Source: Chromohalobacter moromii (GTDB taxonomy: Bacteria; Pseudomonadota; Gammaproteobacteria; Pseudomonadales; Halomonadaceae). Taken from it: a stretch of DNA of 64,000 bases. The notes under the pieces are model-generated. The model was not told the origin of the DNA. It did no database searches and saw only the letters and a program-made list of their open reading frames with translations. The DNA is taken from NCBI RefSeq assembly GCF_023091865.1, contig NZ_JAHXDI010000001.1, forward strand, positions 62,001-126,000, read 5' to 3'. Positions 25,380 through 32,251 of this stretch are shown here, piece after piece. The position numbers and the translations under genes were made by a program. Each line of letters starts with the position of its first letter. The stretch's first letter is position 1.

Positions 25380-26906
25380 ATGAAGTATCGGGACTTGCGC
25401 GATTTCATCGCGGCGCTGGAGGAACGTGGCGAGCTCCAGCGAATCACGGCGGAGGTCGATCCCTATCTGGAGATCACCGAGATCTGTGATCGCACGCTGC
25501 GTGCGGGGGGGCCGGCGCTCTTGTTCGAGAACGTCAAGGGCCACGCCATGCCGTTGCTGGGCAATCTGTTCGGGACGCCGGAGCGTGTCGCGCTGGGCAT
25601 GGGCCAGGATTCGATCGCTGCACTGCGTGAGGTCGGCGAACTGCTGGCGTTTCTCAAGGAGCCGGAGCCGCCCAAGGGCTTCCGCGATGCCTGGGAAAAG
25701 CTCCCGATCTTCAAGCAGGTGATGAGCATGGGGCCCAAGACGCTGCGTAAGGCGCCATGCCAGGAGGTGATCCTTGAAGGCGACGAGGTCGACCTCGACC
25801 AGTTGCCGATCCAGCATTGCTGGCCGGGCGATGTGGCACCGCTGGTGACCTGGTCGCTGGTGGTGACCAAGGGGCCTCACAAAGAACGCCAGAATCTGGG
25901 CATCTATCGCCAACAGAAATTGGGTAAGAATCGCCTGATCATGCGCTGGCTCTCACATCGCGGCGGGGCGCTGGACTTCCAGGAATGGCAAAGCGCACAT
26001 CCCGGTGAGCCGTTTCCGGTCGCTGTCGCGTTGGGAGCCGACCCAGCGACGATTCTGGGGGCGGTGACTCCGGTGCCCGACAGTCTTTCCGAATACGCCT
26101 TCGCCGGCTTGCTGCGCGGCTCGCGCACCGAGCTGGTCAAGTGCGGCCATGCCGATCTCGAGGTTCCGGCGTCGAGCGAAATCGTTCTAGAGGGCTACCT
26201 CTACCCCGACGATATGGCCCCGGAAGGCCCTTATGGCGACCACACCGGCTACTACAACGAGGTCGAAACCTTCCCGGTCTTCACCGTGGAACGCATCACC
26301 CATCGCCGCGAGCCGATCTATCATTCCACCTATACGGGGCGACCACCGGATGAACCTGCCATCCTGGGCCTGGCGCTCAACGAAGTGTTCGTGCCGATCC
26401 TGCGCAAGCAGTTTCCCGAGATCGTCGATTTCTACCTGCCGCCAGAGGGCTGTTCCTACCGTATGGCGGTGGTGACCATGAAAAAACAGTACCCGGGCCA
26501 TGCCAAGCGCGTGATGATGGGCGTCTGGAGCTTCTTGCGCCAGTTCATGTACACCAAGTTCGTGATCGTGCTCGATAACGATGTCGACGCACGCAACTGG
26601 GAAGATGTGATCTGGGCGATCACGACGCGTATGGATCCGGCCCGCGATACGGTGATGGTCGAGAACACGCCGATCGACTATCTCGATTTCGCCTCGCCGG
26701 TGGCAGGCCTGGGCTCGAAGATGGGGTTCGATGCCACCACTAAATGGGCGGGCGAAACCGATCGCGAGTGGGGCACGCCCATCGTCATGGACGATGCCGT
26801 CAAGCGGCGTGTCGACGCGCGCTGGGAAGAATACGGTATCGCTACGCGGCCACCGGCTCCCCGCCATTCGCCCCAGAGCGACGAACGAGGACACGATGAC
26901 GCCTAA
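25380..26906 (+). CDS. ubiD: 3-octaprenyl-4-hydroxybenzoate decarboxylase
   Basis: UbiD is a prenylated-FMN-dependent decarboxylase of ubiquinone synthesis. The product is 508 residues, close to E. coli UbiD along its whole length, with a slightly longer C terminus. Recognisable blocks are [43 protein letters not shown] and [15 protein letters not shown]; the latter includes the catalytic Glu region. I chose the ATG at 25380 ([10 protein letters not shown]), as in E. coli. It is followed 11 bases within its own 3' end by fre, so the two genes overlap, as the E. coli ubiD-fre neighbours do in order. Confidence 0.97.
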
Positions 26907-27708
26907 GACGCTGACCTGCCATGTCGAGTCGGTCGAGGACCTGACGACCGACGTATTTCGCGTCCATCTGGCGGGGCGCCGCGAGGCCATCGCGCATGCC
27001 CCCGGCCAGTATTTGGAACTCAAGCTCGACGAGGAGATCTGGGTACCGTTCTCCATCGCCAACGCCCATGTCGACGACGGCATTATCGAGTTGCACGTTC
27101 AGCATTGGCCGGAACGCAGCAATTCGGCGCGCCTGCGCGAGATCCTCGTGCAGGCCGCTCAGTTGACCGTACGCTTGCCCAATGGCGGTTGCGTGCTGGA
27201 TACCCACAGTCGGCGACCCTTGACGCTGATCGCGGCGGGCACCGGTTTCGCGCAGATGAAAGCCATCGTCGAGGCGGCGCTGGCCAACGATCATCCGGGA
27301 CCGATTCGGCTGTGGTGGGCGGTCAAGTCGCCCCGTGACCTGTACCTGGAAAGCCTGGCGCTCGAGTGGGCCGCCACGCATGCCCATCTGGACGTGCATA
27401 CCGTGGTCGAGGACAGCGAGCCCGCGCTGAGCGCGCCGGCCGGCGTGACGCGACACATCGGTCGCATCGACGAGGTGCTCGCCGAGTACCACGGTGACGT
27501 CTCCGGCGACGACGTCTACCTGTCCGGTTCGCCGGGCATGGTCTACGCCTGCATCGACACCCTGGCCCCGTTGGGACTCGATCCTGAACGGGTCTTCTCG
27601 GATGTCTTTGCCTATGCGCCGCGTGTGCCGTTGATTCCGCTGCCGGACGACCCGGCCGAGAGCGTACCGCTGGCACCCGGTGAGCGCCGCGCGGAGGATG
27701 ACGCATGA
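26896..27708 (+). CDS. fre: NAD(P)H-flavin reductase
   Basis: This is a ferredoxin-reductase-fold protein that reduces free flavin with NAD(P)H; it may supply reduced FMN to the UbiX/UbiD system. The product is 270 residues. The FAD/FMN-domain motif PFSIAN lies near residue 54. The NAD-binding domain carries [12 protein letters not shown] and the C-terminal [11 protein letters not shown]. No Cys-rich 2Fe-2S motif is present, which separates it from full ferredoxin reductases. It has a C-terminal extension of ~35 residues relative to E. coli Fre (233). It overlaps ubiD at its start and folM at its end (ATGA). Confidence 0.88.
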
Positions 27709-28418
27709 GCCAATCGCCGATTCTCGTCACCGGGGGCGCCCAGCGCTTGGGGCGCCACTGCGTGGAGCGCCTGCTCGACGACGGCCAGCCGGTGATCATG
27801 AGCTACCGTCGCGAGCGTGAGTCTCTGGAGGCGTTGCGGCGGCGCGGGGCGGTGACTCTCGCAGCGGACTTTTCCAGCGAGGCGGGCATTCACGATTTCA
27901 TCGCGCGCCTCAAGGCGCAGACCTCGTCGCTGCGCGCCATCGTCCATAATGCCAGCGACTGGGCGCCGGACAGCCTCGACGACGATGCCGGTGCCAATTT
28001 CGAACGCCTGTTTCGCGTTCACATGCAGGCCCCGTACCTGATCAATCTGCATGCCCGCGAACTGCTCGACGCCTGCCAAGAACCGCAGCGCGACATCATC
28101 CACATGACCGATTACGTCAGCCAGAAGGGTTCGCGCAAGCACGCCGCCTATGCGGCGACCAAGGCGGGACTGGACAACCTGACCCTTTCGTTTGCCGCGA
28201 TGTACGCGCCGAGTATTCAGGTCAACGCCATCGCACCGGCCTTGATCATGCTGGGCGACGGTGACGACGAAGCCTATGCCGAGAAGGCCAAGGCCAAGTC
28301 GTTGATGGCCAAGGTGCCGGGGCCGGGCGTGATCTATCAGACACTGCGTTATCTGCTCGACAACGATTTCGTGACCGGTGCGATATTGCCCGTCGATGGT
28401 GGTCGTCACCTGCGATGA
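27705..28418 (+). CDS. folM: Dihydromonapterin reductase FolM
   Basis: FolM is a short-chain dehydrogenase that reduces dihydromonapterin (and weakly dihydrofolate) with NADPH. The product is 237 residues. The cofactor motif ILVTGGAQRLGRH opens the Rossmann fold. The NASDW segment and the catalytic YAATKAGLDN (Tyr-x3-Lys) follow. The C terminus FVTGAILPVDGGRHLR is nearly identical to E. coli FolM, which is why I prefer this over a generic SDR. It overlaps fre by four bases and ends ~70 bases before the aromatic leader peptide. Confidence 0.9.
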   Translation: MSQSPILVTGGAQRLGRHCVERLLDDGQPVIMSYRRERESLEALRRRGAVTLAADFSSEAGIHDFIARLKAQTSSLRAIVHNASDWAPDSLDDDAGANFERLFRVHMQAPYLINLHARELLDACQEPQRDIIHMTDYVSQKGSRKHAAYAATKAGLDNLTLSFAAMYAPSIQVNAIAPALIMLGDGDDEAYAEKAKAKSLMAKVPGPGVIYQTLRYLLDNDFVTGAILPVDGGRHLR

Positions 28419-28438
28419 GCGATAGCCCCGCAGTGGGC

Positions 28439-28466
28439 TTGCCAAATGGCGACAGCCATGTAGGAT
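28439..28466 (+). promoter_or_regulatory. Candidate promoter of the DAHP synthase leader
   Basis: TTGCCA (28439-28444), a 16-base spacer and TAGGAT (28461-28466) would start RNA near 28473, about 18 bases before the leader peptide ATG. Confidence 0.4.
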
Positions 28467-28490
28467 GAAGCCATGTTTTGGAGTCAACCC

Positions 28491-28628
28491 ATGTCGATAG
28501 CATCAGCAGCCACCGCAAGCATGCATTCCCTGCCGACTCAGGCAGCGGAAGCGGGTGCGCGCGCGTTCTTTGGCTTTAGCTATTGGTATTGGTTTAGCCC
28601 CGGCGTGTCCGGCGTTAGGGTCACATGA
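28491..28628 (+). CDS. Aromatic leader peptide for DAHP synthase attenuation
   Basis: A 45-codon frame begins at the ATG at 28491 with GGAG seven bases upstream (28480-28483). It ends at the TGA at 28626. Codons 26-35 (28566-28595) read FFGFSYWYWF: four Phe, two Tyr and two Trp in ten residues. Such a run just upstream of a terminator is the mark of ribosome-mediated attenuation, as in E. coli pheA and trp leaders. An in-frame ATG at 28473 could extend it by six residues that include another Phe and Trp. The peptide itself probably has no other function. Confidence 0.85.
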   Translation: MSIASAATASMHSLPTQAAEAGARAFFGFSYWYWFSPGVSGVRVT

Positions 28629-28713
28629 CCTGATACGCCGAGAGGCACGCCCCACCCCGGGTTGCCTCCAGCGTCTTCGAACCCCCGGTCGGCAACCCGA
28701 CCGGGGGTTTTTG
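28602..28713 (+). promoter_or_regulatory. Transcription attenuator with competing hairpins
   Basis: Three pairings are visible. The pause hairpin joins GGCGTG (28602-28607) and CGGCGT (28610-28615) with CACGCC (28646-28651) and ACGCCG (28635-28640); the leader stop lies in its loop. The terminator is a 13-bp stem, 28680-28692 with 28697-28709, loop CAAC, followed by T residues to 28712. The antiterminator pairs CGGGTTGCC (28658-28666) exactly with GGCAACCCG (28691-28699), which destroys the terminator. Stalling on scarce Phe, Tyr or Trp should favour read-through into the DAHP synthase gene. Confidence 0.85.
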
Positions 28714-28930
28714 CGTTTAATCCACCTCTTTTTTGACGAATGACACAGGAGCGCAACATGTTCGAGATCGGCGGCGCATGGCAGAGCACGCAGGCACTAT
28801 ATTATTGGCGATTTAGCGACGTCCGGTCGGTCTTATCTGCCACCTCCGACCGTGAAACGCTGGGTGGCGTCCGCCGAACACGAAGTTCCGCTGTCCGCTC
28901 GTGACGGACAGCCCAGACAAGAGACTCGAC

Positions 28931-30001
28931 ATGAACGCACCCTTGACGATGCCCCAACGCCCCCAGGCCGCCACGGCACCTTCTCATCAGCCCCTGCCCA
29001 CGCCGGGTGAACTCAAGCAGCGCCTGCCGCTGGAAAGCGCCCTCGAGGAGCAGATCGAGCGCCAGCGTGGCGAGATTCAGGCCATTCTCGACGGGCACGA
29101 CGACCGCCTGCTGGTCGTGGTGGGGCCCTGCTCGATTCACGACCCGTGCGCGGCGCTGGAATACGCTGAAAAGCTCAGTGAGCTCGCCGCGCGCCTCGAC
29201 GACCGTCTGCTAATGGTCATGCGTGTATATGTCGAAAAGCCGCGTACCACGGTGGGCTGGAAGGGGCTCGCCTATGACCCGCACCTGGATGGCAGTGACG
29301 ACATGGCGCATGGCCTGGAGGTCTCGCGGCGCTTGATGCGTGATATTGCCGCCTTGGGCATGCCCGTGGCCACCGAATTGCTGCAGCCGATGGCCGCGCC
29401 GTACCTGGAAGACCTGCTCAGTTGGGTCGCTATCGGGGCGCGCACCACCGAGTCGCAGATCCATCGTGAACTCGCCAGTGGCCTGCGCGCCGCGGTGGGC
29501 TTCAAGAACGGCACCGACGGCAGTGTCGATGTCGCCGTTGCCGCGATGCAGTCCGCTGCGCACCCACACCGTCATTTCGCTCTCGACGATGCGGGCCGCC
29601 CGTCGATGCGCGAGACCGACGGCAATCCGCATACCCACGTGGTGCTGCGGGGCGGGCATGGCAAGCCCAACTATGATGTGGATTCGGTTCGTGCCTGTCG
29701 CCGCGAGCTACAAAGCGCCGGCATAGCGCCGCGTCTGATGGTCGACTGCAGCCATGCCAATTCGCGCAAAGATCACCGCCGCCAGACCGAGGTCATGCTC
29801 GATGTGCTCGAACAGCGTCTGGCCGGCGACCGCGATTTGGTCGGCGTGATGCTGGAAAGCCACCTGCACGAAGGCAAGCAGGCGCTGCAGCCCGGTGCGA
29901 TGCGTTATGGTGTCTCCGTCACCGATGCTTGCCTGGGTTGGGAGGGCACTGAGCACTTGCTGACATTGGCCGCCGAGCGGTTGCGCGACGCCTGTGCCTG
30001 A
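28931..30001 (+). CDS. 3-deoxy-7-phosphoheptulonate synthase, class I
   Basis: DAHP synthase condenses phosphoenolpyruvate and erythrose 4-phosphate, the first step to all aromatic amino acids. The product is 356 residues of the AroF/AroG/AroH type. Recognised blocks are VVVGPCSIHDP, MRVYVEKPRTTVGWKGL, IGARTTESQIHRELASGL, GFKNGTDGS and VDCSHANSRK. I chose the ATG at 28931. Which paralogue it is, and so its feedback inhibitor, cannot be settled by eye. The upstream leader with Phe, Tyr and Trp codons suggests control by more than one aromatic amino acid at the level of transcription. Confidence 0.95.
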   Translation: MNAPLTMPQRPQAATAPSHQPLPTPGELKQRLPLESALEEQIERQRGEIQAILDGHDDRLLVVVGPCSIHDPCAALEYAEKLSELAARLDDRLLMVMRVYVEKPRTTVGWKGLAYDPHLDGSDDMAHGLEVSRRLMRDIAALGMPVATELLQPMAAPYLEDLLSWVAIGARTTESQIHRELASGLRAAVGFKNGTDGSVDVAVAAMQSAAHPHRHFALDDAGRPSMRETDGNPHTHVVLRGGHGKPNYDVDSVRACRRELQSAGIAPRLMVDCSHANSRKDHRRQTEVMLDVLEQRLAGDRDLVGVMLESHLHEGKQALQPGAMRYGVSVTDACLGWEGTEHLLTLAAERLRDACA

Positions 30002-30100: not shown

Positions 30101-32251
30101 ATGAGCAAGGAAATCGAGACTCAGCACAACTTCAATCGCAGCGATAACGAACCGTTCTCGTCGATACTGGCACGCCATGTTTCTCGACGTGACATCATGC
30201 GGGGTGGCCTGAGTCTGGCTGCCTTGGGCATGTTGGGCGGCATCGGCGGGCTCAACCTCGCCAATGCCCAGGAAAGCGGTGCCGGCAAGACGCCGCTGGC
30301 GCTAGCATTCGAATCGCTGCATGGCTCGCGTACCGATGCCGTGCTGGTCCCCGAGAGCTATACCGCACAGGTGTTGATCCCCTGGGGGACGCCGTTAGAT
30401 GAGCAGGCACCGGCTTGGCATCGTGGGCAGGAAATGACCGCCGAAGCGCAGGCTCACAGCGTAGGCATGCATCACGATGGTATGCATGCCTTTCCGCTCG
30501 ATGCGGACAATGCCTCGCGCGATTTCCTGCTTGCCCTCAACAACGAATATATCGATCAGAACGCGCTTTGGGCGCCGCGCGGAGGGCCGACGAATCCCGA
30601 CAGAGGTCAACGTCCGGCCGACGAGGTACGTACTGAAGTCCATGCTCATGGCGTCACCATCGTACGGGTGCGAAAGCAGGCGGATGCGCGTTGGTCGCAT
30701 GTGGCCGGTGACGCTCACAATCGCCGTTTCACCAGCGCGACGCCGATGGACTTGGCAGGCCCCGTGGCCGGCAGCGATTACGTCAGGACACGCTATTCCC
30801 CGGAAGGCACGCAGACACGTGGCACCAACAACAACTGTGCCAATGGCTTCACGCCTTGGGGCACCTACCTGACCTGCGAAGAGAACTGGCCTGAGGTCTT
30901 CGTCAACCGAGGCGAGCTCAATATCGACGATCGTCGCCTGGGGCTACCCACCGAACGCGGCCGCTACGGCTGGGAAACCGCCGCCGGCACCGAGGGCGAG
31001 CGCGAGGACGAGTTCGCGCGTTTCGATGTCACGCCGCGTGGCAACGGACCGCGTGACGATTATCGCAACGAGACGCGCACCTTCGGCTATATCGTGGAGA
31101 TCGATCCATACGATGGCCAATCCCGCGCCGTGAAGCGCACTGCGCTGGGGCGCTTTCGCCATGAGGGCTGCTGGCCGGGCAAGCTGGTCGCCGGTGAGCC
31201 GGTCGTCTTCTATTCCGGTCATGACGCGCGGAACGAGTACATCTACAAGTTCGTGTCCGATGCCAACTGGGATCCTGCGGATGCCAACCGTCCCGGTGAG
31301 AGTTACGACCGTTTGGCGTTGGGTGCCAAGTACATGGACCAAGGCACGCTTTACGTCGCGAGGTTCAGCGCCGATGGCAGCGGTGAATGGCTGCCCCTAG
31401 AGCCGGAGACGCGCGTGGCGGACGGTCGCACGCTGGCCTCAGCCCTGTCATTGGCGGAAGACGACCGTGCGGGCGTCATCGTGCATACCTGCGACGCCGC
31501 CGACCTGCTCGGCGCCACGCCGATGGACCGTCCCGAATGGGGAACCGTTGATCCGGCCTCGGGTGAGGTCTATATGACGCTGACCAATAACTCTCAGCGC
31601 ACCGCCGCCGACACGGCGCCGACCTTCACCCATGAAGGCGACGACATCGACGCCGCGGGCGTGGGGTATGCCACGGCCCCCACCAATGCCGCGAATCCGC
31701 GCGCCGACAACGAGGCGGGGCAGGTGATCCGCTGGCGGGAGCGGGGCGACGATGCCACGCGTTTCGACTGGGAGGTGTTCGTGTTCGGCGCCGCTGCGGG
31801 CGATGCCGACAACCTGTCGGGGCTGACCGAGGGCAACCAGTTCGCCAGCCCCGATGGCCTGTGGTACGACGACCGCGGTGACGGCCAAGGCATTCTGTGG
31901 ATCGAGACCGACAATGGCTACGACGGTGTCGCCGAGCAGACCAACGACCAGGTGCTGGCGGTGGTGCCGGCGGCACTGTCACGTGAGAGTGGCCAGGCGT
32001 CGGTGGTGGGTGCCGCCAACCAGCAGCAACTCAAGCGATTTGCGGTGGGCCCCAACGACTGCGAGGTGACAGGGATCTTTGCCACGCCGGACAAGACGGC
32101 GTTGTTCATCAACATCCAGCATCCCGGCAATTGGCCGGCGGATGCCGATGCGGCGACGCAGGATGCCACGAAGGCCGCCGCCGGCAGCGTACGCCCGCGG
32201 GCGGCCACGGTGGTGATCCAGAAAGCCGATGGTGGGCAGGTCGGGGTATAA
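30101..32251 (+). CDS. phoX: PhoX-family alkaline phosphatase, Tat-exported
   Basis: PhoX enzymes hydrolyse phosphate monoesters outside the cytoplasm using a calcium-iron centre (DUF839 family). The product is 716 residues. A twin-arginine signal is clear: Ser28-Arg29-Arg30-Asp-Ile-Met, a hydrophobic stretch and ANA at 54-56. Family motifs include NNCANGFTPWGTYLTCEENW near residue 245 and GRFRHEGCW near residue 350. A half Pho-box (CTGTCAT, 30018-30024) is upstream but the second repeat is poor. TatABC are encoded nearby. Exact substrate is inferred from the family. Confidence 0.9.
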   Translation: MSKEIETQHNFNRSDNEPFSSILARHVSRRDIMRGGLSLAALGMLGGIGGLNLANAQESGAGKTPLALAFESLHGSRTDAVLVPESYTAQVLIPWGTPLDEQAPAWHRGQEMTAEAQAHSVGMHHDGMHAFPLDADNASRDFLLALNNEYIDQNALWAPRGGPTNPDRGQRPADEVRTEVHAHGVTIVRVRKQADARWSHVAGDAHNRRFTSATPMDLAGPVAGSDYVRTRYSPEGTQTRGTNNNCANGFTPWGTYLTCEENWPEVFVNRGELNIDDRRLGLPTERGRYGWETAAGTEGEREDEFARFDVTPRGNGPRDDYRNETRTFGYIVEIDPYDGQSRAVKRTALGRFRHEGCWPGKLVAGEPVVFYSGHDARNEYIYKFVSDANWDPADANRPGESYDRLALGAKYMDQGTLYVARFSADGSGEWLPLEPETRVADGRTLASALSLAEDDRAGVIVHTCDAADLLGATPMDRPEWGTVDPASGEVYMTLTNNSQRTAADTAPTFTHEGDDIDAAGVGYATAPTNAANPRADNEAGQVIRWRERGDDATRFDWEVFVFGAAAGDADNLSGLTEGNQFASPDGLWYDDRGDGQGILWIETDNGYDGVAEQTNDQVLAVVPAALSRESGQASVVGAANQQQLKRFAVGPNDCEVTGIFATPDKTALFINIQHPGNWPADADAATQDATKAAAGSVRPRAATVVIQKADGGQVGV

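Follow-up and report, generated by a model that had tools for sequence, protein, structure and literature searches.

In E. coli, the DAHP synthase (DAHPS) genes aroF, aroG and aroH are controlled by the TyrR and TrpR repressors. The RNA family P15 (Rfam RF00627), reported from Pseudomonas as a small RNA, is typed in Rfam as Gene and not as Cis-reg, and is said to go back to Livny 2006. Another system that bears on DAHPS control is that of Corynebacterium glutamicum, which belongs to another phylum than the organism studied here. In that species a putative leader peptide with Phe-Tyr-Phe precedes the DAHPS gene aroF and, in the part of the report available, is proposed as an attenuator (PMC4046766). 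Among the titles and abstract openings listed from an open-licence library, we found no report of P15, or of a Pseudomonas or Halomonas DAHPS leader, as an attenuator. Native DAHP synthases matter in Pseudomonas engineering. A paper from that field discusses the feedback inhibition of DAHPS, and its main text contains neither 'leader' nor 'attenuat' (PMC9395534).

Here we analyse a stretch of 64,000 nucleotides from Chromohalobacter moromii (the window, from whose first letter all positions are counted), in which a DAHPS gene is preceded by two short reading frames rich in aromatic codons (Table 1). We propose, with a probability of about 0.83, that two leader peptides acting one after the other control this DAHPS, leader 1 as a ribosome-mediated transcription attenuator and leader 2 as a second check. 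An earlier sequence-only reading had described a complete Phe/Tyr/Trp attenuator before the gene, with a leader frame running through FFGFSYWYWF, a terminator of 13 bp and an exact 9-bp antiterminator. Each of these elements is present, the terminator counting 14 pairs in our scan, and the attenuator itself finds support in the comparisons below; what did not stand is its single leader, since a second ORF follows.

Table 1. Features of the DAHPS leader region, with positions in the window
Feature	Positions	Strand	Basis or detail
Promoter-like site TTGCCA-16-TAGGAT	28439-28466	+	consensus scan only, 9 of 12
Leader ORF 1, 45 codons, ATG 28491 to TGA 28626-28628	28491-28628	+	SD GGAG 28480-28483; alternative in-frame ATG 28473
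Control codons F-F-G-F-S-Y-W-Y-W-F	28566-28595	+	sequence
Match to Rfam RF00627 (P15, Pseudomonas sRNA)	28571-28707	+	49.8 bits, E 4.4e-9, gathering score 70
Strand A, codons G-V-S (G-V-P in many relatives)	28602-28609	+	A:B pairing
H0, small hairpin separating A from B and spanning the leader-1 stop codon	28610-28640	+	fold
Strand B, partner of A or C	28644-28651	+	covariation alignment
Strand C, putative antiterminator 5' strand, CGGGTTGCC	28658-28666	+	C:D and B:C pairing
Strand D, GGCAACCCG, within the terminator	28691-28699	+	C:D pairing
Intrinsic terminator, 14 pairs in scan, then T run	28679-28710	+	terminator scan; conserved hairpin
Leader ORF 2, 48 codons, between terminator and DAHPS	28758-28904	+	SD AGGAG 28747-28751; YYWRF 28800-28814, then S
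Leader-2 core TGGCGATTTAGC, codons W-R-F-S	28806-28817	+	pattern search, genome scan
Strand A2, partner of C2	28824-28830	+	A2:C2 pairing
Strand B2, partner of D2	28839-28844	+	B2:D2 pairing
Strand C2	28846-28852	+	A2:C2 pairing
Strand D2	28863-28868	+	B2:D2 pairing
H2, hairpin with the leader-2 stop codon in its loop, just upstream of the DAHPS start	28891-28911	+	sequence, fold
DAHP synthase, class I (AroF/G/H type)	28931-30001	+	NF009395 521 bits, TIGR00034 455 bits, both above cut-off

Elsewhere in the same genome lies a paralogue of this DAHPS, 53% identical, and no aromatic leader was found among the ORFs listed in its upstream 900 nt. The attenuator begins directly after genes of another kind, since leader 1 is preceded, at 26731-28418, by a flavin-reductase-like gene, whose best NCBIfam match is below the cut-off, and by a dihydromonapterin reductase gene (NF005066, above the cut-off). 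Downstream of the DAHPS, a 716-aa ORF (30101-32251) is without an NCBIfam match at E<=0.001, and at the far side of the window, at 542-645, there is a match to the Rfam t44 RNA (69.1 bits, above the gathering score). When the TyrR-type HTH model was run against the genome itself, the best match reached 28.6 bits (L260, G000:C2:214482-214622) and stayed under the cut-off of 30, so that classical TyrR control is uncertain in this organism.

For comparison we searched the family of the window, in which all 121 genomes gave a DAHPS match; the best match was of the window's type (at least 56% identity) in 103 genomes, and the 18 genomes with a paralogue-type best match only stand outside the leader counts. 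From the former, 88 genomes were taken, L069 and L076 being excluded for an unmatched gene start and 13 others being left out, and two further families of the order contributed 15 loci, which brings the upstream regions used below to 103. Because the genomes are related by descent, counts across the comparative sets are not independent events.

An aromatic leader ORF was found upstream of DAHPS in 103 of 103 regions, and hence in three families of the order, so that the codon run noticed in the window is conserved in its relatives. Our table of leader 1 covers 98 of these regions; the other five (L015, L036, L038, L044 and L047) carry a variant run, GYWRWF, which the pattern missed. In four of the five (L036, L038, L044 and L047) a terminator-like hairpin stands merely 30-37 nt before the DAHPS start, and a second leader was not found in the same four. 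The frame of leader 1 is open in all 98 tabulated loci and, by a lenient test, its ATG is accompanied by an SD-like 4-mer in 79 of them, such a 4-mer not being found in 19. Counted per 12 codons, aromatic residues average 5.9 in this frame and 0.24 and 1.41 in the two others, in loci that had been picked for an aromatic run. The leader frequently ends in ..GYWYWFSxGVP.. in the window's family and in ..YGYWFSxRRA-stop in Pseudomonas-type genomes, the aromatic run itself ending mostly in TGGTTTA. On predicted translation, the window therefore has a short leader with a run of product-amino-acid codons, as ribosome-mediated attenuators do. NCBIfam and Pfam searches with four leader peptides gave only two weak matches (E 0.13 and 0.14), which were taken as chance.

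A model of leader 1 (R1) was also searched over the class, where it matched 11 of 274 genomes at E<=0.001 and brought in a fourth family with leader 1 (f207); this search, like the P15 search of the order genomes and the leader-2 model search described below, was run with stricter filters, and weak matches were lost. The matches in the own genome and in G015, G140 and G523 (E 4.4e-9 or better) adjoin a DAHPS. Seven other matches (E 1.2e-5 to 6.8e-4), with no DAHPS within about 2-3 kb, were taken as chance or terminator matches.

Four strands that follow the control codons can pair in competing ways. A:B and B:C share strand B, B:C and C:D share strand C, and C:D and the terminator share strand D; therefore A:B would go with antitermination and B:C with termination. 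Pairing was followed in alignment A1, with 64 of the 98 loci (30 short-spacer and 4 long-spacer loci were left out), and in alignment A3, with 25 of the 30 short-spacer loci; a further alignment, A4, had 37 sequences. Over 61 distinct family sequences, A:B was 98.3% paired, B:C 93.3 and 96.7%, and C:D 96.4 and 97.5%, the antiterminator pairing being conserved in this way beyond the window. The terminator hairpin was 95.3% paired, with double-sided changes in 6 of 11 pairs, and across the family the inner part of H0 reached only 51.5% at fixed columns. One pair of A:B is U-A in 24 sequences and C-G in 37, and another is U-A in 44, C-G in 10 and U-G in 7. Double-sided changes lie at alignment columns 24-78 and 26-76 in A:B and at 95-135 in C:D, and one C:D pair has 16 of them; pairs with double changes were, as a class, no more numerous than in shuffles, 474 of 500 being as high for the 61-sequence set and 364 of 500 for the short-spacer set.

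When the partners were slid against each other, pairing was lost: the whole antitermination structure was 88.4% paired in register and 21-47% out of it, and B:C together with the terminator 95.3% and 27-62%. A:B was 92.2% paired, against 23-63% slid, in the 25 short-spacer sequences, which are mostly of Pseudomonas type. In the window, the fold of 28571-28715 has an energy of -74.9 kcal/mol, against a shuffle mean of -54.2 (z -4.7, with 0 of 200 shuffles as stable), and 28200-29000 holds three terminator-like sites, against a shuffle mean of 0.8, of which the one assigned to leader 1 has the longest stem. An intrinsic terminator upstream of the structural gene is thus found in the window, along with a mutually exclusive antiterminator that has covariation support. 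The hairpin is followed by a sufficient T tract in 67 of the 98 loci and by a short one in 31, three of the latter belonging to the window's own genus. Taken at the level of sequence, an attenuator before DAHPS is well supported.

The arrangement suggests the following course of events. If charged tRNA for Phe, Tyr or Trp runs short, a ribosome would stall on the aromatic codons of leader 1, and strand A, just ahead of it, would pair with B, which then could not hold C; the freed C would form C:D, the terminator could not close, and transcription would continue. When the aromatic tRNAs are charged, the ribosome would reach the leader-1 stop and keep A unpaired, B:C would form and leave D free, and the terminator would form, releasing a short RNA that in Pseudomonas would be P15. 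We infer the stalling, and a direction of control in which the A:B hairpin favours antitermination, from this anatomy. The sequence-only reading had spoken of a pause hairpin, which we take to be A-H0-B (28602-28651), since C begins six bases past it. The hairpin is there, and so is the offset of six bases; the role of pause hairpin falls away, A:B being, on our reading, the hairpin of the antitermination side. A trp-type set of four strands, in which 1:2 leads to termination and the stalled ribosome covers strand 1, was not found in the window. The earlier suspicion that the competition differs from the trp pattern is thus borne out as far as A:B would go with antitermination, and the position of the antiterminator strand, which had seemed odd, is accounted for by the extra competitor B:C.

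Folding energies agree in part with this direction. In the growing RNA of the window with A free, the best predicted fold is A-H0-B at 28652, B:C at 28668 and 28680, A:B with C:D at 28700 and, once 28705 is reached, B:C with the terminator; the alternative folds are close in energy in this model, and their order is not a clean switch. For RNA made up to D, all 98 loci have the antiterminator as their minimum-energy fold when A is free, and 66 of them keep it as the best fold under a mask on A, which may also cut into B in short-spacer loci. Masking A cuts the mean advantage of the antiterminator from 11.1 to 4.3 kcal/mol and lowers it in 95 of the 98 loci. Because the margin drops in this way, energy supports the direction of the switch, part of which is left to folding order and timing.

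The match of the window to P15 runs over model positions 1-119 of 119, from the control codons to the terminator, and the place before a DAHPS is likewise the same, at a score below the gathering score of the family. P15 matched 21 of 244 order genomes (11 of them at or above the gathering score) and 0 of 14 control genomes; in each of the 21, a DAHPS comes directly after the match. An exact pattern of P15 type occurs in named genomes at 119 loci at least, the 80 listed by title being mostly from Pseudomonas and Stutzerimonas. At 113 of the 119 loci listed, a same-strand DAHPS follows no more than 700 nt away, and at the other six the available sequence ends 22-343 nt downstream. Since P15 matches adjoin DAHPS wherever enough sequence is available, we take P15 to be, most likely, the leader RNA that results from termination at the DAHPS attenuator. 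Its typing as Gene in Rfam would suit another view, in which P15 and its relatives are trans-acting sRNAs that merely happen to lie upstream of DAHPS, the terminator being their own 3' end. Against this, the place beside DAHPS is kept in every checkable case, a reading frame with many aromatic codons makes up the 5' part, and the antiterminator strand covaries with the terminator, for which a plain sRNA has no need; we regard a trans-acting role as very improbable.

Leader 2, which is Tyr-rich, would be read on any transcript that passes the terminator, and its stop is close to the DAHPS start. Its near-invariant core is TGGCGATTT, and the longer form found in the window, TGGCGATTTAGC, is present as a single copy in the 3.47-Mb genome. 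With a pattern allowing synonymous codons, the core was found in 72 of the 103 upstream regions, and its codons CGA and TTT are kept in 72/72 and 71/72 loci, where the same amino acids could have been encoded otherwise; we found nothing with which these core codons (28806-28814) would pair. Loci with TGGCGATTTA have an open frame, an ATG and an SD-like 4-mer in 64 of 64 cases in the family and in 113 of 113 Pseudomonas-type cases among the matches listed. Per 12 codons, the two groups have 4.8 and (again among the matches listed) 5.4 aromatic residues in frame and less than one in the other frames, figures to which the core itself contributes two residues, from loci chosen for the core and with a lenient SD test.

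Of the 119 P15-type loci listed, 113 contain the core. A DAHPS is in reach at 113 as well, though not at the same 113, and 111 of these contain the core. L178, an Alcanivorax metagenome assembly, and L250 are P15-type loci with a DAHPS in reach and without the core. At the codon following TGGCGATTT, the 113 loci listed (L141-L259) read TTTAGC in 72 cases, TTTACC in 39 and TTTATC in 2, the search having required the A. Some genera have leader 1 without leader 2 (for example L016 and L028). Such species, and a conservation of the core that exceeds its amino acids (CGA and TTT are kept), are what one would expect if leader 1 were a real attenuator and ORF 2 no separate translated regulator, its core and fold acting at the RNA level, for instance by binding a protein or ligand. 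We consider this unlikely, given the open frame, ATG and SD-like sequence in every core locus of both groups, the listed Pseudomonas-type one included, and the crowding of aromatic codons into that one frame.

The region past the core can form two helices, A2:C2 and B2:D2. Alignment A2 holds 58 of the 72 core loci, after removal of L041 (too long), of the near-duplicates L011, L026, L066 and L080, and of nine non-family rows, in eight of which the fold was not seen by eye; since all nine were left out, the helix figures from these 58 sequences speak for the window's family only. There, A2:C2 is 96.6% and B2:D2 97.4% paired, the two helices are interleaved, and they have 24 double-changed cells; on all five measures, 0 of 500 shuffles scored as high. 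At fixed spacing, full A2:C2 pairing occurs in 58 and full B2:D2 pairing in 52 of 64 family loci; among the 113 Pseudomonas-type loci listed, B2:D2 is full in 88 and absent in 25, and A2:C2 has one mismatch in 83. Two interleaved covarying helices, as in an H-type pseudoknot, are therefore found in the family and are weaker or absent in the Pseudomonas-type loci; the same pairing could also represent alternative folds. For leader 2, RNAalifold recovered only five pairs of B2:D2 and showed no other conserved helix close to the DAHPS start. A model of leader 2 matched 15 of 293 order genomes, some of them in its training set, all beside DAHPS, 11 in the window's family and 4 in the family holding the best P15 matches. 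A link between a leader-2 helix and the leader-1 terminator, both of which hold CGGTCGG and CCGACCG, was considered and dropped on inspection of the locus tables by eye.

A fold that begins 6 nt past the core, in an ORF whose -1 frame is the DAHPS frame, would also suit a pseudoknot causing a frameshift that fuses leader 2 to DAHPS. A TGA at 28853, past the core and inside the pseudoknot region, closes the DAHPS frame in the window; this rules out such a fusion at the core there and leaves the idea with hardly any probability.

Leader 2 most likely checks the aromatic supply a second time, either through translation or through Rho. In a translational version, reading through leader 2 would let C2-D2 fold onto the DAHPS ribosome site, and stalling would keep the pseudoknot and free the site. 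Relative to the DAHPS start as we assign it, the leader-2 stop ends within -45 to +17 in 62 of the 64 family loci. In 36 of the 64 it ends within -11 to +17, as this version would have it, and some species show strong pairing with the site (for example L025 and L061, z -3.4 each). The pairing is nevertheless weak overall, with a mean z of -0.50 and a median of -0.74 over 58 loci and cognate pairing at -21.2 kcal/mol against -20.5 for non-cognate, and it is absent in the window (z +1.5), so the translational version is put forward tentatively. We rejected the idea that leader 2 generally sequesters the SD, the effect being weak over the 58 loci and absent in the window.

In a Rho-dependent version, reading to the stop would expose a C-rich stretch before DAHPS, and a stalled ribosome would let the pseudoknot hide it. 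The terminator scan found no terminator-like site after leader 2 in the window, and the mean C-over-G skew after D2 is positive, at 0.145 in 57 family loci (background -0.03) and 0.217 in the 88 Pseudomonas-type loci listed (background 0.05), both of which speak for Rho. The skew is modest, however, exceeding 0.2 in 17 of 57 and 55 of the 88 listed loci and reaching 0.13 in the window (28869-28930), and the Rho version, too, is put forward tentatively.

Together, the comparisons support both ORFs, the helices of leader 1, those of leader 2 in the family and the place of the whole beside DAHPS. For the more specific proposal of a two-stage aromatic sensor in the window's family and in Pseudomonas, made of a his-like attenuator (P15) and then a Tyr-rich leader whose conserved core and pseudoknot make up a new translation-dependent switch without intrinsic terminator, we see about even odds. 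If it is true, the entry step of aromatic synthesis in pseudomonads and their relatives senses the charging of Phe, Tyr and Trp tRNA, which would differ from the TyrR/TrpR control of E. coli; P15, catalogued as a 'small RNA' family, becomes a cis-acting leader that can be tested, and is joined by a second conserved leader whose core is defined at the nucleotide level.

Among known systems, the his attenuator of enteric bacteria resembles the window in passing alternative pairings along a chain of strands to the terminator or antiterminator; the window differs in its Phe/Tyr/Trp control codons, in its gene, DAHPS, and in a strand A that comes after the control codons. With the trp and pheA attenuators of E. 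coli it has in common the leader peptide, the antiterminator and the intrinsic terminator. In trp, the 1:2 hairpin leads to termination, whereas in the window the first hairpin, A:B, would go with antitermination, and there is a further competitor, B:C. Tandem leader peptides are known from erm genes, where two leader ORFs precede one gene as they do here; those respond to antibiotics and act on translation. P15 is the same element, although it is filed as a gene and the window copy scores below its gathering threshold. The aroF leader of C. glutamicum has Phe-Tyr-Phe, and the part of the report available describes no second leader, whereas the window has two (PMC4046766). Since that leader is in print, attenuation of DAHPS is not new in itself; what appears to be new is the version reading all three aromatic amino acids in these families, its identity with P15 and the second leader in tandem.
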